IMG/VR virus record: IMGVR_UViG_3300033145_000302
Span: 1 to 38,039 of that record
DNA length: 38,039 nucleotides
DNA from: a virus
Strand: one strand, 5' to 3'
Below are positions 3,291 through 34,804 of the stretch, piece after piece. The notes beneath the pieces are model-generated. The model made no database searches. It was not told the DNA's origin and saw nothing but the letters and a program-made list of their open reading frames with translations. The number at the start of each line of letters is the position of its first letter. Position 1 is the first letter of the stretch. The translations under genes were made by a program, and so were the position numbers.

Positions 3291-4181
3291 TCACTCCTTT
3301 TTGGCATTTAATAATTGCCTCACTGATTTATTAATAAGACTTTTTTCTTGCTTACTAATCTTTTCTTTTTTAGTTAATCCAGAGAAATCTTTTACAGCTT
3401 CATTAATTTTTTTCAAAAGCTTTACTCTCTCGATATTAATTTCTGAAACAACGTCTTTAATCATCTTGACTTCATCAACCTCCTCCTCTTCCCACTCCTC
3501 ATCCTCATCGTCATCTTCGCCGTCCTCTTCTTCGTCATCATCGGTTTCCTCATCATCGTCGTCGTCATCAATATCTTCGTCATCTTCCTCATCGTCAATA
3601 TCTTCATCATCCTCATTATCCAAGTCTTTCTTTTCTTTTTTCTCTAAAGCCTCTTTCTTTTTTTCTTTGAACAAAGCCTCTGCATTTGCAGGAACTCCGA
3701 CAATACTAACCTCCAAAAGTTCTGATCTAACTGGATTTCCCATTCCATCAAACTCTTTAGGAATAAATCCGATTGAGGTTGCATTTATAAATCCTCCCTC
3801 TGCTAATTTAGCGGCTAAAGCTCCTAAAGGATTAGCGACTGCAAAGACAATCGTTCCCTGAAGTTTACCCTCTTCTACTCTGATATTGTCCACTCTTCCA
3901 ATAATTTTTTCTATGGATCCATATCTATGAGAATCAAGCAATACCGGATTTTTCTTAAAGTTCTCAAGCTCGAAGTTTTGATGAACAATATCTCCATCCC
4001 TATCTATGTTCCCGGTTGAAAAGATAGACTCAAACTCTGTTTCACTTTTCTTCACAAACTTAACTTCTAAATCTGTAATCAAAGCAATATGATCATCTTT
4101 AACCTTAGCCCAAAGTTCTTTTAATGTTTTTACACCAAGAGCCTTGAATGAATCGTTTGTTATTTTATAAAATTTAATCAT
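3291..4181 (-). CDS. Prohead maturation protease (U35/HK97 type) with acidic tract
   Basis: A 296-residue serine protease that should trim the capsid delta domain during head maturation. The protease core spans about residues 40-165: EFESIFSTGNIDRDGDIV (first strands), DSHRYGSIEKIIGRV with the catalytic His, and GGFINATSIGFIPKEF with the catalytic Ser. Residues about 185-240 are almost all Asp and Glu. The final 55 residues are basic and helical, which could act as a scaffold-like tail. The acidic tract is encoded by a run of GAT/GAA-type codons that looks like a simple-sequence expansion. The gene follows its own promoter and a terminator hairpin that ends 11 bases before the ATG. Confidence 0.88.
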   Translation of the reverse strand: MIKFYKITNDSFKALGVKTLKELWAKVKDDHIALITDLEVKFVKKSETEFESIFSTGNIDRDGDIVHQNFELENFKKNPVLLDSHRYGSIEKIIGRVDNIRVEEGKLQGTIVFAVANPLGALAAKLAEGGFINATSIGFIPKEFDGMGNPVRSELLEVSIVGVPANAEALFKEKKKEALEKKEKKDLDNEDDEDIDDEEDDEDIDDDDDDEETDDDEEEDGEDDDEDEEWEEEEVDEVKMIKDVVSEINIERVKLLKKINEAVKDFSGLTKKEKISKQEKSLINKSVRQLLNAKKE

Positions 4182-4218
4182 GTTTTTTAATAAAAAGACG
4201 CCTTTCTAAAGCGTCCAT
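4174..4218 (-). CDS. Possible 14-codon leader ORF in the protease leader
   Basis: An ATG at 4216-4218 sits directly at the foot of the terminator hairpin and opens a 14-residue frame (MDALERRLFIKKHD) that runs through the hairpin and ends by overlapping the protease start. A ribosome on it would unfold the hairpin. The equivalent RTG is conserved in the leaders near 6.28 and 34.78 kb, though each encodes a different short peptide. There is no Shine-Dalgarno sequence, so translation is uncertain. Confidence 0.3.
   Translation of the reverse strand: MDALERRLFIKKHD
4192..4215 (-). terminator. Intrinsic terminator in the protease leader
   Basis: Minus strand GACGCTTT-AGA-AAGGCGTC forms an 8 bp stem with one G-U pair and a 3-base loop, followed by TTTTTATT. 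It stops just before the protease ATG (4181) and downstream of a promoter at 4244-4271, so it interrupts that promoter's own transcript. Confidence 0.8.
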
Positions 4219-4243
4219 GAACATTCATTCTACGAACACACTT

Positions 4244-4271
4244 ATTATAGCACACTAATTTTTTTAGACAA
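4244..4271 (-). promoter_or_regulatory. Late-type extended -10 promoter for the protease/capsid operon
   Basis: Minus strand TTGTCT - 16 bases - TATAAT, with TGTGC directly before the -10 (extended -10). The core TTAGTGTGCTATAATA is nearly shared with promoters at 6310 and 34805. A conserved leader box (4216-4235, TCGTAG to CATG) follows, then the terminator. Confidence 0.7.
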
Positions 4272-4291: not shown

Positions 4292-6244
4292 TTACATACT
4301 ACACCTACAATTAATAACCTCTTCAGCTGATCCTCGAGGATCTCCTGGAAACTTTAATCCATTACTAAAGTAATCATTGATACCAACCTCTTCTCCATCA
4401 ATGTTATGACTATCTCTTACATTAGCATCTCCAACGTTTACCCAAATCTTAATTGGCAAACCAGACTGCTTATAACCTTCATAATTTCCTTTTTGAAAAG
4501 CTCCATGAGTTTCAGTCCTGGCAATAGTCTTAGCTCTGCTAGTTTCATAAATAGCATACTTATCTTTAATACCTTTAATCAACGCATCTCTTGGATTATC
4601 AGAATCGAAAGCAGTTTGAAATACGGCCTCTAACTGAACGAACGTAGTATCAATAACTGATTTAGAAAATTCCTCAATCCTTTCTTCTATCCAGGAACGA
4701 ATATTAACATCGATAATAAAATCATCAAATTCAGCTTTCTTAAAAGTCTTTGAAAAACTCATTGCATCGGTCCCGGCATTAATTAAAACTATTTCCAATA
4801 AAGGTTTGATAATAGTTTTTGCAACAAGCATTTCCTCGCCCTTATTAAATATTTCTGAAAGCTGTGGATTGCCTGTGCCTGCTTCAATCTTTTCAATTAG
4901 TCTATTTCCTTGTTTCTTAAAATATCTAGCCATAGCGCCTTCAACTCTTTTCTCTTCCTGGCTTAATTGCTTATCTTTCATTGCTCCATACTTAGATCTA
5001 AAGCCTTTATCTTGAAGTGGATGAGTCATTCTGTCTGCACTTTTAATAGTTTTAATCGGTTCGCTTTCATTACTACTAAATAAAGGTACTTGATTTATTG
5101 GTCCATAAATTACATCTCCGCCAGCGACTGGCTCAAAGCCCAATTTTTCTCTCTTCTCATTAACAGTTAAAGCATTAACCGTATTTCCTGTTTCAACGTC
5201 CTTTCTAATCTCTTCTTTATTTTCTGGAACAGGATCAACGAAATCAAGCTCTCCATTTCCTTCCGGTAACAAAGAATGATTTAAAAGACTAGATAAATTC
5301 GCTACCAAAGGCTTAATCGTATGCTTCATAAAGGTCATTTCACTATACTCGGAGTTACTATACTTTACATCGTCAACGCTCCCCAGGATTGATTTAGGAA
5401 CCCCAGTCATTATCACAATATCATTCAAGGTCATCTTCTTTGTTTCCAAGTAATTTAATTCTGTTGGAGTAAGTCCCATATTCTCATAGTCCATATCCCC
5501 AGCCAAAAATAAAGGCTGTCCAGACTTTCTGGCCTGCCCATACTTTTCTTGATACTGTGTTTTAATATCGTCAAGCTGTTCTGCGGTAATACGTTCACTC
5601 TTAACTTTAAACACACCTTCAATCTTTCCTCCATTCTTTAGAATACTGTTTTGATATTCATCAATCTGAACTCCCGTATCGATAATTCTAGCCCCAGCCT
5701 TCATAAGACTTTCTCCTTTCAACTGATTAAGCGGATCAGGATAAAAAGAATAAATAATCTCTTCTGGCTTATAAATATCAAAGCCTCCGTTTGGTTTGTG
5801 AAATTTATAACCAACAATAGCCCCACCTTTAATTTGAACTTCAACTAAGTCTGGCCTTAATAAATGCAAGGCTCTAGGAACACCACCAATACCCGGTTCT
5901 TTCCAAATAAAAGCACTTCCAGTTATATCTTTATAACGTTGATAAAGTTCCCAGAATTCAGAACCACTAAAGAAGTTATTGGGCTGATTAAGTAAATCAA
6001 GCCATTCATTATTTTCGTCAATAACATTATCTCCCTTTTTAATTACCCATTCAGTTTGAGCTACCTTTTCAGCTCTCTTCTTGATGGCCCTATTAGCATA
6101 CAAAGAGATCTCATTTTGTTTTAAGAACTCCCTTGAGCCCCAGTTTAAATCATCTTTTAAACTCCTTGATTGAAATAGACCGGAGTAACTTTTCTTATTA
6201 AAGAACCCTATTATCTTGTTAAAAATGTTTTTTGATTTTTTCAT
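4292..6244 (-). CDS. Portal protein fused to a MuF-type domain
   Basis: A 650-residue fusion. The first ~400 residues are a phage portal of the HK97/SPP1 type: WVIKKGDNVIDENNEWLDLL, then RALHLLRPDLVEVQ, EIIYSFYPDPLN and MTGVPKSILG are its usual stations. The last ~100 residues carry a Mu gpF-like head-morphogenesis domain: TIARTETHGAFQKGNYEGY, then RDSHNIDGEEVG, FPGDPRGSAEEVINCRC. Portals form the dodecameric DNA channel; MuF proteins are minor capsid proteins packaged inside the head. These are separate genes in most phages. The ATG at 6244 lies 3 bases beyond the T-tract of a terminator, under its own promoter at 6310-6338. Confidence 0.92.
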   Translation of the reverse strand: MKKSKNIFNKIIGFFNKKSYSGLFQSRSLKDDLNWGSREFLKQNEISLYANRAIKKRAEKVAQTEWVIKKGDNVIDENNEWLDLLNQPNNFFSGSEFWELYQRYKDITGSAFIWKEPGIGGVPRALHLLRPDLVEVQIKGGAIVGYKFHKPNGGFDIYKPEEIIYSFYPDPLNQLKGESLMKAGARIIDTGVQIDEYQNSILKNGGKIEGVFKVKSERITAEQLDDIKTQYQEKYGQARKSGQPLFLAGDMDYENMGLTPTELNYLETKKMTLNDIVIMTGVPKSILGSVDDVKYSNSEYSEMTFMKHTIKPLVANLSSLLNHSLLPEGNGELDFVDPVPENKEEIRKDVETGNTVNALTVNEKREKLGFEPVAGGDVIYGPINQVPLFSSNESEPIKTIKSADRMTHPLQDKGFRSKYGAMKDKQLSQEEKRVEGAMARYFKKQGNRLIEKIEAGTGNPQLSEIFNKGEEMLVAKTIIKPLLEIVLINAGTDAMSFSKTFKKAEFDDFIIDVNIRSWIEERIEEFSKSVIDTTFVQLEAVFQTAFDSDNPRDALIKGIKDKYAIYETSRAKTIARTETHGAFQKGNYEGYKQSGLPIKIWVNVGDANVRDSHNIDGEEVGINDYFSNGLKFPGDPRGSAEEVINCRCSM

Positions 6245-6246
6245 AT

Positions 6247-6279
6247 AAAAATGAGTAACTTTTTAATTCAGTTACTCAT
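6247..6279 (-). terminator. Intrinsic terminator in the portal leader
   Basis: Perfect 10 bp inverted repeat ATGAGTAACT / AGTTACTCAT around a 9-base loop, followed by TTTT on the minus strand and then, after two bases, the portal ATG. It lies downstream of the promoter at 6310-6338. The 5' arm itself contains ATG-AGT-AAC-TGA, a 3-codon frame. Confidence 0.75.
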
Positions 6280-6309
6280 GGATATTTAACCTACGAGTTT
6301 CTAATATTT

Positions 6310-6338
6310 ATTTTAGCACTAACTTTCCTTGTTGTCAT
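6310..6338 (-). promoter_or_regulatory. Late-type extended -10 promoter for the portal gene
   Basis: Minus strand ATGACA - 17 bases - TAAAAT with TGC before the -10, inside the 3' end of the 59-residue gene upstream. The core TTAGTGCTAAAATA resembles the promoters at 4244 and 34805. The leader box TCGTAGG...CCATG (6277-6296) follows. Confidence 0.7.
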
Positions 6339-6498
6339 CATAGCTGATATTTACTGACTTCTCAATCTGTTTAGTTTGAATATTAGTAACCTTGTTTTTA
6401 TAAACCTTTAAACTAACAATTAAAGAACCAAAGCATATTCTTCCTGCCTCCTCTCTGATTAACTCGATAATTGTTTTTTCTTGTTTTGTTAATTCCAT
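6319..6498 (-). CDS. Small protein between large terminase and portal
   Basis: A 59-residue protein starting at ATG 6498 (MELTKQEKTIIELIREEAGR); an in-frame TTG nine bases earlier is less likely. It begins right after the terminase stop. It reads as one amphipathic helix, then beta-strands (GSLIVSLKVYKNKVTNIQ), then a polar tail, a pattern seen in small phage proteins of unknown role at this site. The portal promoter lies inside its coding end. Confidence 0.65.
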   Translation of the reverse strand: MELTKQEKTIIELIREEAGRICFGSLIVSLKVYKNKVTNIQTKQIEKSVNISYDDNKES

Positions 6499-6499
6499 C

Positions 6500-7681
6500 T
6501 TAGGCAAATCCTACATAAGTTTTTTTAGAATGACTGAACGAACCGTACCTGGCCGCGTCCATAGCATGATCGTTAACCTTGACCGGCTCATCAGTTATCT
6601 TACCATCTTTCATTTTCCAAGAATAGGACTTAATCTCTTTTAACAATTCAACTGATCTGCTTGTTACAAATATTTTTCTTGATTTACAATAATCAATTCC
6701 GTCCTTTACCTTGTTATCAGTAAGAGCTTTTTCCTTGCTCTTCATCGGAATATGAAACCCAGCCTTTTTAAGTAAATAGATTTTCTCTGGTTCTGACGGA
6801 TCAGGATATATCGGAATATTCTTATCAATCTTTTCTTCAATCATTTTCGCAATTAAATCTTCCGTTGTCAATCTACTCTGATAAATCTTCTGGTCCCAAT
6901 AAAGATTGTCGTCATAAAGAACTATCTCGATTAAAGAAGTGGCATTGTTAAATCCAAAGTCTAAACCATAGAAACGATCTACATTCTTCTCTAATGGCAA
7001 CTCATCAATCAACTTCCAGTTATTATAAATCTTAGCTTGACTCATACCTCTCAAACCAAGCCCGTAAATCTTCCAATAGTTCTCATCAATATCTTTATAT
7101 CTTTCAATCTCGCTAACCAAAGAAGGATTTAGAAACGGATTATCAAGATATGTTGACCTAATCAATAAGCAATCTTTTCTAGGAACAACCATATCATAGA
7201 TCCAATGAAACTCATCAGACGGATTATAATCAAGGAAAACTTTTTGCTCTGTCCTCATAGAGAATTGCCTATAAGTTTCCAAGTCAAATTCATTACTCTC
7301 ATTGATCCATAAAATATCTCTTCTCTGACTTCTTAATTTTTGAGGAGAATCGGCGGCTACAAACTCAACCATATTCTTACCAAACTTATAAGTCTTATCA
7401 GTCTTATTGTGAAAACTCTCTTTGTAATACCCCCAGTTATCCAATATATGAAAAAAGTCTTTCATAGCCGTTCTCTTTAAAGTTGGCAAAGACTTTCTCG
7501 ATATCGTTATTCTTAAGCCCTCATTTGGATTTCTTAACAATAAACGACACATCAATTGAGCAATACTATAAGTTTTAGATGAGCCAGTTCCTCCCTCATT
7601 TACGATAATCCTATGCTTATCGCCTTCATAAGCTTTAAGGTTCTGGAGAAATATGTTTGTTACTGTTTCCTGTATCCTCAT
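6500..7681 (-). CDS. terL: Terminase large subunit
   Basis: A 393-residue packaging motor. The ATPase half has a Walker A-like loop EGGTGSSKT (residues 29-37) and a Walker B region RRDILWINESNEFD (about 120-134). The RNase H-like nuclease half starts with RFYGLDFGFNNATS (metal-binding Asp), continues with PDPSEPEKI, and ends with KVNDHAMDAARYG, the conserved last Asp site. It would cut concatemeric DNA and pump it through the portal. It overlaps the small subunit gene by 47 bases in another frame. Length and order match Terminase_3/6-type subunits. Confidence 0.93.
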   Translation of the reverse strand: MRIQETVTNIFLQNLKAYEGDKHRIIVNEGGTGSSKTYSIAQLMCRLLLRNPNEGLRITISRKSLPTLKRTAMKDFFHILDNWGYYKESFHNKTDKTYKFGKNMVEFVAADSPQKLRSQRRDILWINESNEFDLETYRQFSMRTEQKVFLDYNPSDEFHWIYDMVVPRKDCLLIRSTYLDNPFLNPSLVSEIERYKDIDENYWKIYGLGLRGMSQAKIYNNWKLIDELPLEKNVDRFYGLDFGFNNATSLIEIVLYDDNLYWDQKIYQSRLTTEDLIAKMIEEKIDKNIPIYPDPSEPEKIYLLKKAGFHIPMKSKEKALTDNKVKDGIDYCKSRKIFVTSRSVELLKEIKSYSWKMKDGKITDEPVKVNDHAMDAARYGSFSHSKKTYVGFA

Positions 7682-10208: not shown

Positions 10209-10320
10209 GTTTATTAAATAATTTTTTTAATAATTTATTTCTCTTCCCTCGAACTTTAATACCAAATATTGTTTTAGGTGGATCCCTATAAAAAATATAA
10301 ATTGCCTTATTTTCTTTCAT
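10159..10320 (-). CDS. Possible small basic protein after the glycosyltransferase
   Basis: A 53-residue frame from ATG 10320 whose start overlaps the glycosyltransferase stop (ATGA), beginning MKENKAIYIFYRDPPKTIFG and then strongly basic (VRGKRNKLLKKLFNK). The overlapped start suggests coupling and it fills an otherwise empty 108-base gap. Against it, the end overlaps the next gene by 50 bases. Confidence 0.4.
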   Translation of the reverse strand: MKENKAIYIFYRDPPKTIFGIKVRGKRNKLLKKLFNKHEKSNTKQIRGFIQAL

Positions 10321-12056
10321 GATTTTCTAATTCTCTCTTTTATTCCAGAAGGTAAACGACTATAAACCTCTGGCTCCAGAATAATAATATCTCCAGACCT
10401 ATATTTTCTACCTAATATCTTAACTACCCTCTTTGCAAAATATTTCTTATTACCAAGCTTATCAATCCTTGTTACCCCCCCATTCATTTCTTTGCAATAC
10501 GTAATTCCAAGCGATTTAAAGAAATAATTTTTATCGGACTTCCTAGCCCTATACTGTTGATATTCTTTAGACACATCATACCTCTGTTTTTTATGATCAA
10601 CAATTGGATCAGGACTAAAGGCCACATTCTTACCAGCTTTCTTAATTGAAATAAACCAATGAGAATGCTCATAAGCTACCTTGATATTTTCGTCCCACGG
10701 AACATCTCTAATGCTTTCTGTTCTGGCCACAAAGAAGTTAAATGTTAAATCAACCTTCTTATATCTTAAGCCACTCTCCTTATCAACGTCTTTAACTATA
10801 TTCTCATGAACAATTTTATATTCAATATGATCAGGATGAAGATTTATAAAGCCTTGATAATTTCTTACATTTTTATTTTCCATTATCCTACCTCCAACTA
10901 AATCAAACTCCGGATGATTATCTAAAAACCTAACCATCCTATCAACCATTGCTCTATCGTCATACAAGAAATCATCATCTCCAATAAGAACATAATCTGT
11001 ACTTACCTTATCCATTAATCTATTTCTACAAACTGGCACGCCAGAATCAAACCTTAATTCTACATATTCTCCCCCAGCATCAAAAACAGCGTTCTCAACA
11101 CCCTTATCACGACGTCCGTTTTCTCCAACTAAAATCTTGCCAATATCTGGATAAGTTTCTTTAAGAGATCTAATGCAATCAACGGTATATTTCGGCCTTA
11201 AAAACGAAACAATAATTGCTGTTAACCTATCCATTCCTTTCAGCTTAACTATTTTTTTAACAGGAGATTTCCTAGACTCTTCTTTTTCAAGCTCAATTAC
11301 CGAACCATTAAAACCTGTTACATGCGTTATTCCTAATGATCTAAGAAAATAATTTTTATCAAATCTCCTATTTCTATGTTCGGAATATTTATTACAAACG
11401 TCATAATTTTGAAATTTATGCTTGACTATCGCTTCAGGAATAAAAGCTACATTTTTCCCTGCCCTGTAAGCACTTATAAACCAATGAGAATGTTCGTAAG
11501 CAACTTTTATGTTCTTATCCCACGGCAAATCAATAATATCTTTTACTCTTGCTACAAAGAAATTAAAAATCATATCAACCTTTTTATATCTTAATCCAGT
11601 GACTTTATCTGTTTCCACAACCTTATCTTCTTTAACCAGATTATAAACAATACGATCTCCTTGAACGTCAAAATATCCTTGATAGTTTTTTACTAGATTG
11701 CCTTGTAGTATTCTTCCACCGGCAATATCAAATTCTTTATGATGCTTTAAAAACTCAACCAGCTTATCAACTTTAGCTCCTTTATCGTATAAAAAATCAT
11801 CATCTCCCACCAATACATATTTTGTTTTAACTTCTTCTAAAAGCATATTTCTGCCTGGCCCTACTCCACAATCAAAAGACAATTGAATATACTTGCCGCC
11901 AACATCAGAAACAGCCTTAGCAACATCAGCATTTCTTTCTCCATTTTCTCCTACTAAAATCTTAATTTTAGGATATTGTTTTCTTAAAGACTTAACGCAA
12001 TCAATCGTATATTTTGGTCTAAAAAATGAAATTATTATAGCCGTTAAATTTTTCAT
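10317..12056 (-). CDS. Tandem-duplicated GT-A glycosyltransferase
   Basis: A 579-residue protein made of two homologous GT2-like domains: residues 1 to about 255 and 275 to about 530, then a 50-residue basic tail. Each repeat has LTAII(I/V)SF(F/L)RPKYT near its start, LVGENG, the metal-binding GDDDFLYD (residues 84-91 and again in the second half), GLRYKKVD, FNFFVAR, and KVAYEHSHWFIS, so both copies look catalytically intact. The second begins with Met275 (base 11234), as if two genes were fused by loss of a stop. It should transfer sugars from nucleotide sugars. It is coupled by an ATGA overlap to the LicD-type gene and lies in a glycan-modification cassette. Confidence 0.85.
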   Translation of the reverse strand: MKNLTAIIISFFRPKYTIDCVKSLRKQYPKIKILVGENGERNADVAKAVSDVGGKYIQLSFDCGVGPGRNMLLEEVKTKYVLVGDDDFLYDKGAKVDKLVEFLKHHKEFDIAGGRILQGNLVKNYQGYFDVQGDRIVYNLVKEDKVVETDKVTGLRYKKVDMIFNFFVARVKDIIDLPWDKNIKVAYEHSHWFISAYRAGKNVAFIPEAIVKHKFQNYDVCNKYSEHRNRRFDKNYFLRSLGITHVTGFNGSVIELEKEESRKSPVKKIVKLKGMDRLTAIIVSFLRPKYTVDCIRSLKETYPDIGKILVGENGRRDKGVENAVFDAGGEYVELRFDSGVPVCRNRLMDKVSTDYVLIGDDDFLYDDRAMVDRMVRFLDNHPEFDLVGGRIMENKNVRNYQGFINLHPDHIEYKIVHENIVKDVDKESGLRYKKVDLTFNFFVARTESIRDVPWDENIKVAYEHSHWFISIKKAGKNVAFSPDPIVDHKKQRYDVSKEYQQYRARKSDKNYFFKSLGITYCKEMNGGVTRIDKLGNKKYFAKRVVKILGRKYRSGDIIILEPEVYSRLPSGIKERIRKS

Positions 12057-12616
12057 TTACTTGCCTCTTCTTTAGTTATTTCAGAACGCTCCCAATTTAT
12101 ACAACGAGGATCAGTAGCCCAATTCCACTTCTGAATTGGAGTTTTCCAATCTCCATACATTGCTGTTAAATATTCTTCTACTGGATTAGGAACAAATACC
12201 CTCATCCCTAAAAAGTCTATCTCTTTTAAATTATCAAATAATCTTTTTTCAAATTCAAGAAATATTCGTTTTTTATTTTTCCAATAAGTATTCCACACAA
12301 TATTATCTTTCTCGTAATGAAAGAAAAAATCAGTCTTAATTCCCCATTTTCTCCAAGCAAACTCATAACCATTTTCAATCTTTCCAAAGTCGCAAATAAA
12401 ACTAAAGCCATTTCTAAATAATTCTCTAGCCAAATACCATACTTCTGAAGGATCTTTAATCATTACCCCAATATCTGTGTCTGTATCGTAACTTATAAAG
12501 TCCTTCTCTCTAATAGCCCCTAAACAAGTTCCGGCATCAAGCCACCACTTAATACCTAATCTGTTTAATATTTCTGTTATTACCTTAATGTTTTCTCTAG
12601 CTTTAACTTTATCCAT
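12053..12616 (-). CDS. LicD/fukutin-type phosphotransferase
   Basis: A 187-residue protein of the LicD family (nucleotidyltransferase fold). Residues 22-50 show the family signature: IKWWLDAGTCLGAIREKDF followed by SYDTDTDIG, giving the G-T-x-L-G-x-x-R and D-x-D-x-D metal site. LicD proteins transfer a phospho-alcohol such as phosphocholine from its CDP derivative onto a surface glycan. A cytidylyltransferase gene two genes upstream could make such a CDP donor. The C-terminus carries a Trp-rich stretch (YGDWKTPIQKWNWATD) typical of the group. The substrate cannot be read from the sequence. Confidence 0.85.
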   Translation of the reverse strand: MDKVKARENIKVITEILNRLGIKWWLDAGTCLGAIREKDFISYDTDTDIGVMIKDPSEVWYLARELFRNGFSFICDFGKIENGYEFAWRKWGIKTDFFFHYEKDNIVWNTYWKNKKRIFLEFEKRLFDNLKEIDFLGMRVFVPNPVEEYLTAMYGDWKTPIQKWNWATDPRCINWERSEITKEEASK

Positions 12617-12636
12617 TTTTTATTTTATTATTTATT

Positions 12637-12882
12637 TTATTTTTCATCATCATCAAGCCACACTTTTTTATTTCTAACAAAAGTATAATATATTTCTATA
12701 TTATCTCCAAGTTTCTTATGTTTGAACTCTCCCTCGCTTTTCTTACTTGCTATAATGGCCATAAATATATCGTCTAATATCTCTGCATCTAATTTTTTTA
12801 TACACCAAATAGAAAAACTACCATGCCAAGACTCGGCATCATAGTTCCAATTATTATCAATTTTCTTCTCTTTAAAAACCAT
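12637..12882 (-). CDS. Small uncharacterised protein of the glycan cassette
   Basis: An 81-residue acidic protein (NWNYDAESWHGSFSIWCIKK, then DAEILDDIFMAIIASKKSEG, and an acidic end WLDDDEK). No family is recognised. It lies between the epimerase and LicD genes with short gaps of 13 and 20 bases, so it is very likely co-expressed with them. Confidence 0.65.
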   Translation of the reverse strand: MVFKEKKIDNNWNYDAESWHGSFSIWCIKKLDAEILDDIFMAIIASKKSEGEFKHKKLGDNIEIYYTFVRNKKVWLDDDEK

Positions 12883-12895
12883 ATTATTTTATTAA

Positions 12896-13594
12896 TTAAT
12901 TTTTAAATTTTATGTAATCTAAAACATTTATTTTCGGTTCCCAATCAGGAGTAGAATTTTTGATAACAGAATCAACAATATCTCCAGACTTAAATTCTTG
13001 CATAAATACCTTCTTACCAGTCGCCGCCGCTAATTCATTAATTGAAACTGGCTTGCTACCACCTAAATAATATTTTCCATTGTCCCAATCCTTAGCCTTG
13101 ATTAAACCATCAACGATATCTTCTAAATGCACAAAGGTCCTAGTCTGTTCTCCCCCATAAACAACGATAGGATCATCAATAATAAATTTCTCAACAACTC
13201 CATTTTTGTTATCTCCAAAGATATTAGGCAAAACACAAATTACTAAATTCTCTGCCATCATTTCTAAATAATCTTCCGCTGTCCTTTTAGAAAGACCATA
13301 AGGACATGACGCTTCAATTGAGGCCGCCGAACCAGTATAAATAATTTTCTTATTTTTATACCTCTTAGCAATTTTAATAGCCGTTAAAATGTTCTGCCTA
13401 GCATCATAAATAGGATCTTCCCAAGATTTAGGAACACTAGCTTGAGCGGCTAAATGATAAATTACATCAGCATCAGGTAGTTCGCAACTTAAAATATCTT
13501 TACTACTTTTAATATCTAAACCAACCGGATTAAATTGCTTTAACTTTTCAAATAACCTAGATCCTATGTAACCCTCATGTCCAGTAACAATCAT
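12896..13594 (-). CDS. NAD-dependent epimerase/dehydratase (extended SDR)
   Basis: A 232-residue Rossmann enzyme. The cofactor loop is GHEGYIG (residues 5-11), with Asp27 after the second strand, a DADVIYHLAAQASVP stretch, and the catalytic Tyr-x-x-x-Lys at 99-103 (YGLSK). It acts on nucleotide sugars, for example as a 4-epimerase or reductase, and so probably supplies donors for the neighbouring glycosyltransferase. It is shorter than usual (about 310 residues): the substrate-binding part is reduced. One base separates it from the cytidylyltransferase stop, so the two are translationally coupled. Confidence 0.88.
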   Translation of the reverse strand: MIVTGHEGYIGSRLFEKLKQFNPVGLDIKSSKDILSCELPDADVIYHLAAQASVPKSWEDPIYDARQNILTAIKIAKRYKNKKIIYTGSAASIEASCPYGLSKRTAEDYLEMMAENLVICVLPNIFGDNKNGVVEKFIIDDPIVVYGGEQTRTFVHLEDIVDGLIKAKDWDNGKYYLGGSKPVSINELAAATGKKVFMQEFKSGDIVDSVIKNSTPDWEPKINVLDYIKFKN

Positions 13595-14371
13595 TTAGTT
13601 TTTTTCTATTTTAATTTTAATTTTAATCGCGGTTGAACTTTGTCCTTTAAAATAAGGACTTTGAATAATCTCTCCACCGTAAGACTTAACATAATCATTT
13701 GCAGGTTGCTCTTTATGATCTTCACTTTCCATTAAAACATCCGGCTTTAATAATTCAACATTTGTTAATGGGGAATATTCTCTTTGAGGAACAACCTCAT
13801 CAACACACTTTAAGGCACTTATTATTTTCATTCTCTCTCCAAAACTTATAATTGGTTTTGACTTTTTCTCCATTGTTGCCCCATCAGTCAAAACTCCTAC
13901 AATTAAATGATCTCCTTGTTTCTTTGCCCTCTCTAAGTGTTTTAAGTGTCCAATGTGAAGAATATCAGCTACCACATAAGCATAAACTACCTTTTTTTTA
14001 TTCCACAATTTTTCGTTGATCCAATAAATAGGAATTTTAGTGAAAATATAAGTTAGAGTAATACTAGTCATAGTCTTGATATTTCCTGTTATAAGGTAAG
14101 TTATCAATCCTAAAATTAAATTTCCCAGAATAATCTCATAAGTAAAAGATTTAAGATAAGGTCTAAACTTTTCACTTACCTTAATTTTCTGCCAGGCTCT
14201 CTCATGCAGATAAAAAATAACAAGGAATATTCCATGATGAATTACCGTTGTTAATGTCGTTTGAGCTAAACTTCTTGTAAAAAACCAGGTTATAAGTGCT
14301 AACCAAAAAACCCCAAAAAGACGCCACATAATACTCTTGAGCATAGATCTCCTTTTATTATCGTACTTCAT
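13595..14371 (-). CDS. Two DUF2061 membrane domains fused to a cytidylyltransferase
   Basis: A 258-residue fusion. Residues 8-63 (RSMLKSIMWRLFGVFWLALI ... LHERAW) and 70-124 (RPYLKSFTYEIILG ... WINEKLW) are two DUF2061-type units, giving about four membrane helices. Residues 127-258 are a cytidylyltransferase of the glycerol-3-phosphate / RfaE-C type: HIGH at 139-142, GVLTDG at 159-164, ISFGERMKIISALKCVDEVV and GQSSTAIK near the end. It would make a CDP- (or ADP-) activated polyol or alcohol phosphate at the membrane, a plausible donor for the LicD-type enzyme. The fusion is unusual. The start overlaps the 33-residue basic ORF by 14 bases. Confidence 0.88.
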   Translation of the reverse strand: MKYDNKRRSMLKSIMWRLFGVFWLALITWFFTRSLAQTTLTTVIHHGIFLVIFYLHERAWQKIKVSEKFRPYLKSFTYEIILGNLILGLITYLITGNIKTMTSITLTYIFTKIPIYWINEKLWNKKKVVYAYVVADILHIGHLKHLERAKKQGDHLIVGVLTDGATMEKKSKPIISFGERMKIISALKCVDEVVPQREYSPLTNVELLKPDVLMESEDHKEQPANDYVKSYGGEIIQSPYFKGQSSTAIKIKIKIEKN

Positions 14372-17324: not shown

Positions 17325-19337
17325 TTATAAGTAATAACCTTGAAATCTTTTAAGCCCGTTAAACTTTGGACTAGATATTAATCCGTCCCCCTTACTTAAA
17401 AGCTTCTCTGCTCCTGCCTCATCTAAAATAATACGACTATTAATTTCAGAAGAAGTTGCAAACGCTACCTTTGTTGGAAAATTGGCTTTGATTAAACCAG
17501 TTACAACTTTAGAATCTGGCCTCTGTGTGGCAATAATTAAATGAATTCCGGCCGCACGTCCTTTTTGAGCCAGTCTTGTTATCATCTTCTCAACACCTAA
17601 AGCGTCTGATGACATTATTAGATCTGCAAACTCATCAATAACGCAAACGATCTGTTTCATTCCAACCTCTTTATAACTCTTAGCTTTTTTACCTCTTAAA
17701 ATTTTATACCTGTTTTTAGTTTCAGCTATTAAAGATTTTAAAAGATTGGCCGCCTCGAAAGGCTCATAAACAATCTCATCTGCCTGGTCCGCAAATTGTG
17801 ATAGCTCAACCATTTTAGGATCTATGAGTTTTAAAGAAACTCTGCCTTGATCAATAATTGCTTTTATTATTGAATTTAGGAAAACAGATTTTCCACTTCC
17901 AGTTGCACCGGCAACCAACATGTGAGGCATATCATCAAGAGTTAATCTTATTATTTCTCCATTCTGATCAGCTCCGATAGGCAAGCCCTCTCTCTTTTTT
18001 CCAATTATAGAATCTGATAATTTTACAAAGGTCCTCTTCTTTTTAGGTAATTCTATTCCTACAAAAGTTGTGTCTGGAATAGGAGCTACAATTCTTATTC
18101 CCGACGTTCCGATAGCTTGTTCGATATCGGCCGTATAGCTTTTTAAGGACCTCATCTTAACCCCTATCGATGGCGTAAATCTGTATTGAGTAAAAGAGTT
18201 ACCTTTAATACAACTATCGTAACGAAGCACAATACCGTACTCCATTAATTTAGTGATTATTTTTTCGTGGTTTTCCATCTTTGAATAATTTATACTTTTA
18301 TATTCTACTAATGATTTTTCAACAGCATTTCTTAAAGATTTCATATTGCGAAAAGACGCAAGATTTTTCTTTAAGACTTCTGTTATGTTATCGACCTTTA
18401 ACTTTTTTTGTATCTTAGCCAATTCTTCTGGCTCATCTAAGCGCTGAATATAAGAAATGATACCTACCTCATTATCCATAAAGGTATCAACGTTAGGAAT
18501 AAAAACCTGCTCTCCCATTAATGCTTTGATAGTATCTCCATAAAATCTAAGAAAGAAATCAAAGAATAATTCATTTTCTGAATAGATAATATCGTACGCC
18601 CTGGTCTGAACTCCATCTCTGCTTTTAGTATGTTTGGTTTCAACGAAACGCATTTTGTAAGGTTCTTCTCCATATTCAGCATAAACAAGAAAATAATATA
18701 CGATCGCTTGCAACATTTTTCGGCCATCAATTTTATCAGGATTAGAAAAGGATCTACAACACTTATCATCCTCAATAACTAATCTCTTTTCTTTATCTCG
18801 ATATAATCTATCTATGTACCCTTTCAATTTTATTGGCAAAGATATTCTTTTTCCTCGCCATTCAACATCGATATGCTTTTCAATCTTTATTTCTGACGAA
18901 ACAAACTTTCCAGTAATCTTCAATTCTTTAACCCTGCTATTATAAGAAAAGGCAAATTTCTCTAACATCTTTTGTCTGTTCTCAATCGATGTATTCCATC
19001 TGATAAATCCTTCCGGGTACTGTTCTATAAATTCTATTCCAGCCTCTAAACCATTCTTTACTGCATCCTTTTTATTAGACGTAAAGAATACATCGATTGC
19101 GTGATGAAAGGCATTACCTAGAACCATTGCTGAACTGTGAGCCGTATCGATAACATCGTGGTTAATATACTTAATACGGAACAGTATAGGATTTGACGAA
19201 AGCTTTGCCATTGAAGAATAAGAGAGATGGTCCAAAGGAAAATCTTGATTAGACTCCTGCTCCCGGTGTGTTATTTTCGGTAGTTGTTTCCTCGTTAGCT
19301 TCGCCCTTATCTTCTTTACCTTTGCCTTTTTCGTCAT
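17325..19337 (-). CDS. RecB/Cas4-type nuclease fused to an FtsK-type DNA translocase
   Basis: A 670-residue fusion. Residues ~35-280 are a PD-(D/E)XK domain of the RecB/Cas4 class: LSYSSMAKL start, GNAFHHAID with His78/79, KGYIDRL (Asp176), LVIEDDK (Glu189, Asp190, Lys192) and QAIVYY (Gln210...Tyr214), so all catalytic positions are present. Residues ~355-445 resemble the FtsK alpha/beta region (APIPDTTFVGIELP). Residues 446-670 are the motor: Walker A GATGSGKS (477-484), IDPK (505-508), Walker B VCVIDEFADL, ATQRP (603-607). No gamma domain follows. It should cut and move along dsDNA. The start overlaps recT by 89 bases; the overlap is unusual, and a later non-ATG start is possible. Confidence 0.88.
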   Translation of the reverse strand: MTKKAKVKKIRAKLTRKQLPKITHREQESNQDFPLDHLSYSSMAKLSSNPILFRIKYINHDVIDTAHSSAMVLGNAFHHAIDVFFTSNKKDAVKNGLEAGIEFIEQYPEGFIRWNTSIENRQKMLEKFAFSYNSRVKELKITGKFVSSEIKIEKHIDVEWRGKRISLPIKLKGYIDRLYRDKEKRLVIEDDKCCRSFSNPDKIDGRKMLQAIVYYFLVYAEYGEEPYKMRFVETKHTKSRDGVQTRAYDIIYSENELFFDFFLRFYGDTIKALMGEQVFIPNVDTFMDNEVGIISYIQRLDEPEELAKIQKKLKVDNITEVLKKNLASFRNMKSLRNAVEKSLVEYKSINYSKMENHEKIITKLMEYGIVLRYDSCIKGNSFTQYRFTPSIGVKMRSLKSYTADIEQAIGTSGIRIVAPIPDTTFVGIELPKKKRTFVKLSDSIIGKKREGLPIGADQNGEIIRLTLDDMPHMLVAGATGSGKSVFLNSIIKAIIDQGRVSLKLIDPKMVELSQFADQADEIVYEPFEAANLLKSLIAETKNRYKILRGKKAKSYKEVGMKQIVCVIDEFADLIMSSDALGVEKMITRLAQKGRAAGIHLIIATQRPDSKVVTGLIKANFPTKVAFATSSEINSRIILDEAGAEKLLSKGDGLISSPKFNGLKRFQGYYL

Positions 19338-25767: not shown

Positions 25768-25796
25768 AAAAAAATGCACTTAGTTTTTAAGTGCAT
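25768..25796 (-). terminator. Strong intrinsic terminator of a short leader-like RNA
   Basis: ATGCACTTA pairs with TAAGTGCAT (9 bp, 5-base loop), followed by a run of T on the minus strand. It lies about 40 bases after an extended -10 promoter, so the predicted product is an RNA of about 65-70 bases. Confidence 0.85.
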
Positions 25797-25841
25797 AGAT
25801 ATTGGACCACCTCCTAGCTTCAATGAGCTACCTGTATTATA
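25774..25841 (-). ncRNA. Predicted short RNA with perfect Shine-Dalgarno and terminator
   Basis: Between the -10 TATAAT (25836-25841, TGT before it) and the terminator, the transcript carries a small AGCT...AGCT hairpin, the sequence TAGGAGGTGG (25807-25816), then AATATCT and ATG at the foot of the terminator. The ATG opens a 10-codon frame MHLKTKCIFF through the hairpin. No other gene leader in the window has so good an SD. It could be an attenuator leader or a stand-alone regulatory RNA. Confidence 0.5.
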
Positions 25842-25844
25842 ACA
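25836..25844 (-). promoter_or_regulatory. Extended -10 promoter of the short RNA
   Basis: TGTTATAAT on the minus strand. The -35 region overlaps the lysis-operon terminator and shows no TTGACA match, so recognition would rest on the extended -10. Confidence 0.5.
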
Positions 25845-34233: not shown

Positions 34234-34737
34234 TTATGCAATTTCTCGATAAGAAAATTTTAATGTCGAAGTCGAACCTGTCGTATCTCCTGCATCTGAT
34301 TGAATTTGATGCACAAGATAGTCTGACTCTCCAACTGCTGTTAAAACACCGCTTAGAGAACCTCCTATACCCAAATTAGCACTTGCAGGACTCGAACTTG
34401 GCATTGTTTCTGTTGCCACAGTTGAATCAGTATCTACCGGCTGAACATAACTTTCAGCTCCTCCATAGGCGGCTATTCTAGCATTTGTTACATGAACAGC
34501 TGAACCTCCCAAAGCACCATCCCTCCATACTTTTAAAGTATCGATTTGAGATGAACCTCCCATATTAGTAACTTCCAATTTTTGATATTTCTCATAAGAA
34601 TTATCTCCTGGACTAATTGGATATGTTACAGGATCTAAATTAGCAGAATCATTAGAACCCATATTAGCATTAGTAATATTGGCTGACTCTACTTCTCCCG
34701 CTCCATTAAATTCGTTTATTTGAACACTAGCTGGCAT
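34234..34737 (-). CDS. Putative minor tail/structural protein
   Basis: A 167-residue Ser/Thr/Gly-rich beta protein (SVQINEFNGAGEVESANITN, YEKYQKLEVTNMGGSSQIDT, TTGSTSTLKFSYREIA). The composition is like that of virion surface proteins. It is the first gene of the tail-fibre/lysis operon, and its ATG lies 8 bases after the T-tract of a terminator hairpin. The product may be abundant because the unit has its own promoter. Confidence 0.65.
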   Translation of the reverse strand: MPASVQINEFNGAGEVESANITNANMGSNDSANLDPVTYPISPGDNSYEKYQKLEVTNMGGSSQIDTLKVWRDGALGGSAVHVTNARIAAYGGAESYVQPVDTDSTVATETMPSSSPASANLGIGGSLSGVLTAVGESDYLVHQIQSDAGDTTGSTSTLKFSYREIA

Positions 34738-34745
34738 ATTTATTT

Positions 34746-34774
34746 AAAAAAGGCATGTTCCTATTGAACACGCC
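34746..34774 (-). terminator. Intrinsic terminator in the tail-operon leader
   Basis: GGCGTGTTC pairs with GAACATGCC (9 bp, one G-U) around AATAG, then T6 on the minus strand. It stops 8 bases before the start of the 167-residue tail gene and is downstream of the promoter at 34805-34832. Confidence 0.85.
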
Positions 34775-34804
34775 ACGGTTAATTTTACCTGCGACCTTGA
34801 TTAT

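Follow-up and report, generated by a model that had tools for sequence, protein, structure and literature searches.

Overlapping hairpins ahead of phage virion operons suggest a two-state RNA switch and a candidate small-protein partner

Introduction

What does a phage gain by placing a promoter, a short box, a hairpin and a start codon in the same order ahead of three separate virion genes? The phage late-gene switches that are well known work at promoters or alter RNA polymerase. The window analyzed here, a stretch of 38,039 nucleotides of viral DNA, carries three such leaders. A sequence-only reading of it had taken the box, TCGYAG...RTG, as a conserved linear sequence followed by a hairpin and a T-tract. 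It had proposed an attenuation or antitermination switch for the three operons, worked by a protein, by the leader RNA itself or by ribosome entry at the RTG.

Results

Three leaders in the window

Direct reading bore out the order and the coordinates of the extended -10 promoter, TCGYAG..RTG box, hairpin and start codon at all three sites, which lie on the minus strand. At S1, the protease leader, the promoter TGCTATAATA (4252-4243) is followed by the box (4235-4216), which falls within a first hairpin, H1 (4214..4236; UUCGU-A-GAAU GAAU GUUC-AUGGA). A second, terminator-type hairpin, H2 (4196..4216), overlaps H1 by 3 nt and runs into a U-tract (4195-4190, T5). The first gene after S1 encodes a head maturation protease (3291..4181, ATG 4181; phrog_80, 9e-19). 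S2, the portal leader, begins directly past the stop codon of a small gene with the promoter TGCTAAAATA (6318-6309). It continues with the box (6296-6277), H1 (6275..6297; CUCGU-A-GG..CC-AUGAG) and a 10-bp terminator-type H2 (6251..6279), which overlaps H1 by 5 nt and is followed by a U-tract (T5). The gene for the portal protein, which has a Mu F-like domain, comes next (4292..6244, ATG 6244). Similarly, S3 consists of the promoter TGTTAAAATA (34813-34804), the box (34794-34774), H1 (34772..34795; GUCGC-A-GGU AAAAUUA ACC-GUGGC) and a terminator-type H2 (34752..34774) that overlaps H1 by 3 nt and ends in U6 (T6). The first gene after S3 lies downstream of the tape measure gene and encodes a 167-aa protein of no assigned function (34234..34737, ATG 34737); its 59% identical homologue in L101 is placed after the capsid gene. 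At each site H1 is supported by covariation and by a match to the covariance model described below.

A terminator scan picked up the H2 of S1 and S3 and missed that of S2 because its loop is 9 nt. The fold z-scores of the leaders are -2.1 (S1), -3.8 (S2) and -3.1 (S3). The two strands of the window together hold 12 copies of TCGYAG, and only those of S1-S3 have an extended -10 ahead of them and a hairpin with a start codon behind. The annotated genes of the window are on the minus strand, and a Shine-Dalgarno sequence is absent before most of them.

The window has other features of note. A further TGTTATAATA promoter is found with AGGAGGTGG at 25774-25844, where an ATG stands at the first base of a hairpin that is followed by T7; this unit has no TCGYAG box and closes the late operon, with an early promoter, TTGACA/TACAAT (25749-25721), immediately beyond it. 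One ORF (17325-19337) fuses a PD-(D/E)XK nuclease domain to an FtsK/SpoIIIE ATPase and adjoins a RecT gene. A cassette of glycosyltransferase, LicD-like, epimerase and cytidylyltransferase genes (10317-14371) lies between the early and late regions, and related genes are present in several relatives.

The box is a covarying hairpin

The capsid search gave six relatives at 83-54% identity, the capsid alignment search 74 further viral loci and three genome contigs, one of them from a Collierbacteria MAG, and the protease alignment search 57 more loci; most of the loci are fragments. One relative resides in a Collierbacteria MAG and one in a Cloacimonadota MAG. The single-protein search with the portal returned no relatives, and the terminase relatives were set aside as too distant, model matches in them being weak.

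Twelve distinct leaders make up what we call class I: the three of the window, one each in L002, L003, L105, L138 and L172, and two each in L149 and L185. They precede portal, protease or tail tube genes. The box in these leaders folds into H1, with the plan YCC-GYA-stem-pentaloop-stem-RU-GGN, laid out as N-Y-C-G-Y, a bulged A, 2-4 bp, the loop and ...C-R-U-G-N-N. Covariation links the Y of CGY to the R of RUG (CGU..AUG, CGC..GUG) and is also seen in the outer pairs (CU/AG, GU/GC, UC/GA, CC/GG); the L138 variant reads CCGCAGG..CCACGG. Over 7 leaders 98.2% of the pair cells are paired, and over all 12 the value is 96.9%, with the core pairs of L105 and of the L149 tube leader paired partly by construction because these two were retrieved with a descriptor in which the CGYA core, the Y-R pair and some of the inner stem were obligatory. 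That descriptor left the outer pairs free, and S1-S3, L002 and L003 were located by position. Slid controls are 32-48% paired. Double-sided changes number 20 over the 12 leaders vs 6.0 in shuffles (0/500 shuffles). The alignment with relatives asked for by the earlier reading finds the box conserved as a hairpin and not as a linear sequence, and YAG and RTG covary. The bulged A may recall the MS2 operator, and the loop may recall boxB/GNRNA loops.

The RTG is the 3′ arm of H1 and not a conserved start codon. A ribosome starting there could in principle break H2 so that transcription continues, and this leader peptide reading draws on the presence of RTG in 11 of the 12 class I leaders and on leader ORFs that overlap the gene start in S1 and L105. 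Pairing accounts for the Y/R covariation. Moreover, most of the leader ORFs have 3-14 codons, with MSN* in S2 and VANL* in the L149 tube leader stopping after 3-4, the ORFs keep no constant frame relative to the gene, the RTG has no Shine-Dalgarno sequence ahead of it, L138 has ACG, and the class II leaders described below have no RTG at that place. Ribosome entry at the RTG is hence considered very improbable.

Each of the 12 class I leaders has a TGnTAnnnT motif 6-23 nt ahead of H1 (1.3 expected from shuffles) and an H2 of 7-13 bp. A covariance model built from 7 leaders retrieved its own input and 4 held-out leaders, all ahead of late genes: before the protease in L149 (2059-2080) and in L185 (1351), before the tail tube in L185 (5655) and before the portal in L172 (900). 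A match at L172 2963 is a repeat of the L105 leader. With the -10 and H2 in 12/12 leaders and further model matches only before late genes, the architecture exceeds chance.

Other searches delimit the distribution of H1. Most relatives that have no H1 carry an extended -10 and a near-leaderless AUG at the equivalent place, or no leader. A promoter-plus-box pattern had no matches over viral contigs, and its looser version found L149 together with chance matches inside genes. The pattern CCGCAGGWANNNNWCCGTGGAC matched 14 contigs, in which only the four known leaders were leader-like and the rest were GC-rich and coding-looking. Weak H1 matches in L212, L222, L223 and L092 were taken as chance; on reading, L212 had no arrangement of H2 plus start codon. 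No H1 was found in 137 genomes of the class of the Collierbacteria MAG, a search run without a positive control. Rfam at the gathering score identified only tRNA in the window and ten relatives, and nothing credible in S3 at a relaxed threshold.

H1 and H2 exclude each other

The last 3-5 nt of the 3′ arm of H1 also belong to the 5′ arm of H2 in 12/12 class I leaders. Since the two hairpins use the same arm, they are mutually exclusive. The shared arm can pair with the 5′ arm of H1 (e.g. CUCGU) or with the 3′ arm of H2 (e.g. CUCAU), so its bases are constrained by two partners. H2 is the stronger hairpin in 12/12 (-9 to -21 kcal/mol vs -2.5 to -8 for H1), and in all 12 the lower H1 stem is open in the predicted energy minimum of the naked RNA.

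The T-tract of the earlier reading is present at S1-S3 and is not universal among relatives. A U-tract follows H2 in 9/12 class I leaders (weak in L105), which are of the terminator type. The L149 protease, L138 and L172 portal leaders have none, and their H2 lies 1-8 nt from the AUG, as in a translation-block type. Both types occur in one phage, L149, behind the same box: its protease leader has no U-tract and its tube leader has U6. These arrangements suggest one sensor with two outputs, either termination or a block of translation. Riboswitches likewise show both outputs.

Phage operons often end in terminators, and 5′ hairpins can stabilize mRNA. H2 might accordingly be an insulating terminator or an mRNA-stabilizing 5′ hairpin, and H1 might have no regulatory role. 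We regard this as improbable: H2 follows the operon's own promoter and directly adjoins the start codon, H1 covaries, is conserved and has an arm in common with H2, and relatives that lack the small gene are near-leaderless at the equivalent place.

Being at the transcript's 5′ end, just past the promoter, H1 also recalls HK022 put (PMC9378689), so that the H1 RNA itself could make RNA polymerase resistant to terminators without any ligand. Yet H1 overlaps the terminator stem, an overlap that put does not need, and a polymerase-modifying element makes no sense where H2 is T-less (L149 protease, L138, L172, L101). Such a put-like action is given very little credence.

Given the covariation, the mutual exclusion of H1 and H2 and the recurrence in relatives, a switch of the attenuation or antitermination type gating several virion operons is well supported from the sequence comparisons. 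The original proposal is thus supported in part.

Class II portal leaders

The portal genes of many other relatives are preceded by class II leaders, which have a P1 stem (often UCC/GGA), a small internal loop, a 3-bp P2 and a loop [AG]NNNA. The P2′ or P1′ arm runs on into a terminator or into a T-less hairpin beside the AUG. The class II descriptor matches 16/41 portal leaders vs 1.4 in shuffles; its matches in L004 and L082 look like chance. When class I and class II are aligned, the common plan is YCC|nnA|3 bp|pentaloop|3 bp|nn|GGN with 99% of cells paired, the 100% pairing of class II being by construction because these hairpins were picked partly by eye and by a pairing descriptor. Independent support for class II comes from its loop and its position, along with the contrast to shuffles. 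The two classes may be homologous.

Class II leaders can also be repeated within a phage. G142 (= L101) has a second leader before a tail-region gene (25541) whose 21-nt box is nearly the same as that of its portal leader; the tail-gene leader has a U-tract (U5) and the portal leader has none. A second leader candidate in G144, before 6433-6951, is uncertain.

Several relatives carry other elements at these places. L103, L140, L213 and L220 upstream of the protease, and L132 upstream of the portal, have another kind of structured leader, with GCGTGnAnnTCCGA..TCCAGAGG or CCAGAGGG in common; that of L220 has no Rfam match. A tRNA-Met (CAU) gene (L005:6636-6711) lies between the promoter and the portal attenuator of L005, and a tRNA-like sequence apparently occupies the equivalent place in L102. 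In L218 (7904-7922; also L258:9524-9542), a single copy of AATTTCTACTTTTGTAGAT separates a TGTTATAATA promoter from a portal leader that has a terminator. It looks like a Cas12a crRNA handle and is possibly a solitary crRNA-like unit (decoy or Racr-type).

A small protein encoded beside the portal leader

The small gene that ends where S2 begins (6319..6498, minus strand) encodes a 59-aa DUF2292-like protein. It is a candidate for the trans-acting factor that would stabilize H1, on the grounds of gene-leader association and of a subtype that tracks the RNA class. Across 19 contigs, a family of about 60 aa is encoded directly upstream of the portal in 8/9 leader-bearing contigs, in 0/5 leaderless ones and in 3/5 unclassed ones. 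The loop descriptor is found in 32/40 portal loci with the small gene vs 0/17 without it (Fisher 8e-9; shuffle rate 7%), and the 8 misses include the window and L172, which have class I leaders, and L138/L149. Moving L218, whose small ORF is a weak and uncertain homologue (E=0.04), to the gene-bearing group gives a Fisher value of 4e-8. On the portal tree the gene changes about 8 times; the leader followed in 5.7 of about 7 independent pairs and never went the opposite way, a borderline result by sign test (p about 0.03). In L132 a structured portal leader stands without the small gene.

The protein subtype also tracks the RNA class. The small proteins of class I phages are mutual nearest relatives (p=0.004) and their portals are not (p=0.24), the subtype being drawn from four sequences of which one is a 35-aa fragment. 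These proteins (L149:2-106, L172:724-879, L138:3619-3771 and window 6322-6498) have a TNIQxET[KR]RS-like C-terminal stretch in common, weaker in the window member, which is a possible specificity determinant.

Pfam DUF2292 (PF10055), which also occurs in Bacillus subtilis, is matched weakly by 8/41 homologues (best E 2.7e-4); the window protein had no match to Pfam at any threshold. The predicted fold is a helix plus a beta hairpin (alpha-beta-beta; pLDDT 83), and a PDB fold search with it gave no informative match and no recognized RNA-binding fold. No published function of DUF2292 was found in the literature searched.

The RNA evidence names no ligand, and the same H1/H2 switch could answer to another phage or host protein or, as a riboswitch, to a small molecule. 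The small gene adjoins the portal leader, and their association may reflect a shared cassette in which both travel. Only L138 and L149 break this pattern: they keep the gene without a portal leader and have their class I leaders at the protease or tail tube, and adjacency alone therefore fails to explain the link. Together with the match of subtype to RNA class, and with a 22-nt hairpin that is small for a metabolite aptamer and matches no Rfam family, this makes another ligand unlikely, though the most serious of the rival readings. Among the three options first raised, a protein is the best, with a candidate gene adjoining the S2 leader, and ribosome entry is not supported. The small protein beside the portal is probably what throws the switch.

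Discussion

Our analysis favors, with somewhat better than even confidence, leaders that switch between two RNA states and keep virion genes off unless a trans-acting factor, likeliest the DUF2292-like protein, stabilizes H1. RNA polymerase would begin the transcript at the extended -10, and H1 would be the first to form, as a short stem, a bulged A or small internal loop, a 3-bp stem and an A-rich pentaloop. Its 3′ arm would then be drawn into the stronger H2, leaving the late gene off. Where a U-tract follows, H2 would end transcription; where H2 abuts the AUG without a U-tract, it would block ribosome entry. A factor bound to H1 would retain the shared arm there and shorten H2, and the polymerase or ribosome could pass through to the portal, protease and tail genes. 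The likeliest such factor is the protein of about 60 aa encoded directly upstream of the portal. The ON/OFF polarity of the switch, its timing and the binding of the small protein are parts that we infer.

The family itself is a more speculative matter. DUF2292-like proteins could be a new family of RNA-binding switch proteins that, within this clade of phages, time late genes via a dedicated hairpin wired to a terminator or a start-codon block, with protein subtype and RNA class co-evolving; we hold this tentatively, at a little under even chances. The likeness to Pfam DUF2292 (PF10055) consists of weak but repeated matches from the small-protein family upstream of the portal. If true, DUF2292, a small-protein family lacking a known function, would gain a testable one, and a compact pair of a 22-nt RNA and a 60-aa protein would be available from phages with uncultured or unknown hosts.

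The likeness first drawn to lambda Q, 21 Q and HK022 put is not supported. Lambda Q engages paused polymerase through a DNA site. As with lambda Q and 21 Q, phage late genes here appear to be controlled at a terminator near the promoter, but each phage has several separate leaders. No Q homologue was present among the window proteins scanned against Pfam, and the PHROGs scan covered a subset of the proteins. Like HK022 put, H1 is an RNA hairpin directly downstream of a phage promoter. However, put needs no partner other than RNA polymerase and works on terminators far away (PMC9378689), whereas H1 competes with one adjacent hairpin that it overlaps and is not a separate put/qut element.

Closer parallels are found among the catabolic attenuators. 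ANTAR targets are paired hairpins with six-base loops. For the ANTAR proteins NasR, AmiR and EutV, the distal stem of the antiterminator overlaps the proximal stem of the terminator, and loop residues are conserved (PMC3369936). The H1 arm overlaps the H2 stem in a similar way, but the leaders here have a single hairpin, in most cases with a pentaloop, unlike the two hexaloop hairpins of ANTAR targets (A1, G4). An ANTAR domain is absent among the window proteins scanned, and none of them matches CAT_RBD/PRD in Pfam.

In the RAT/LicT logic, an antiterminator hairpin excludes an intrinsic terminator (PMC3369936). The leaders resemble the RAT of the BglG-SacY-LicT family (CAT domain) in setting an antiterminator against an intrinsic terminator, with a small RNA-binding domain proposed as the stabilizer (PMC3369936). 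They differ in that H1 has 22-24 nt, one bulged A or small internal loop and a pentaloop, and in that they govern phage virion genes and in some cases appear to block translation instead. What emerges appears to be an RNA switch that recurs ahead of virion operons, following the RAT and ANTAR catabolic attenuators in logic and built on another RNA with modular outputs, termination or a block of translation.
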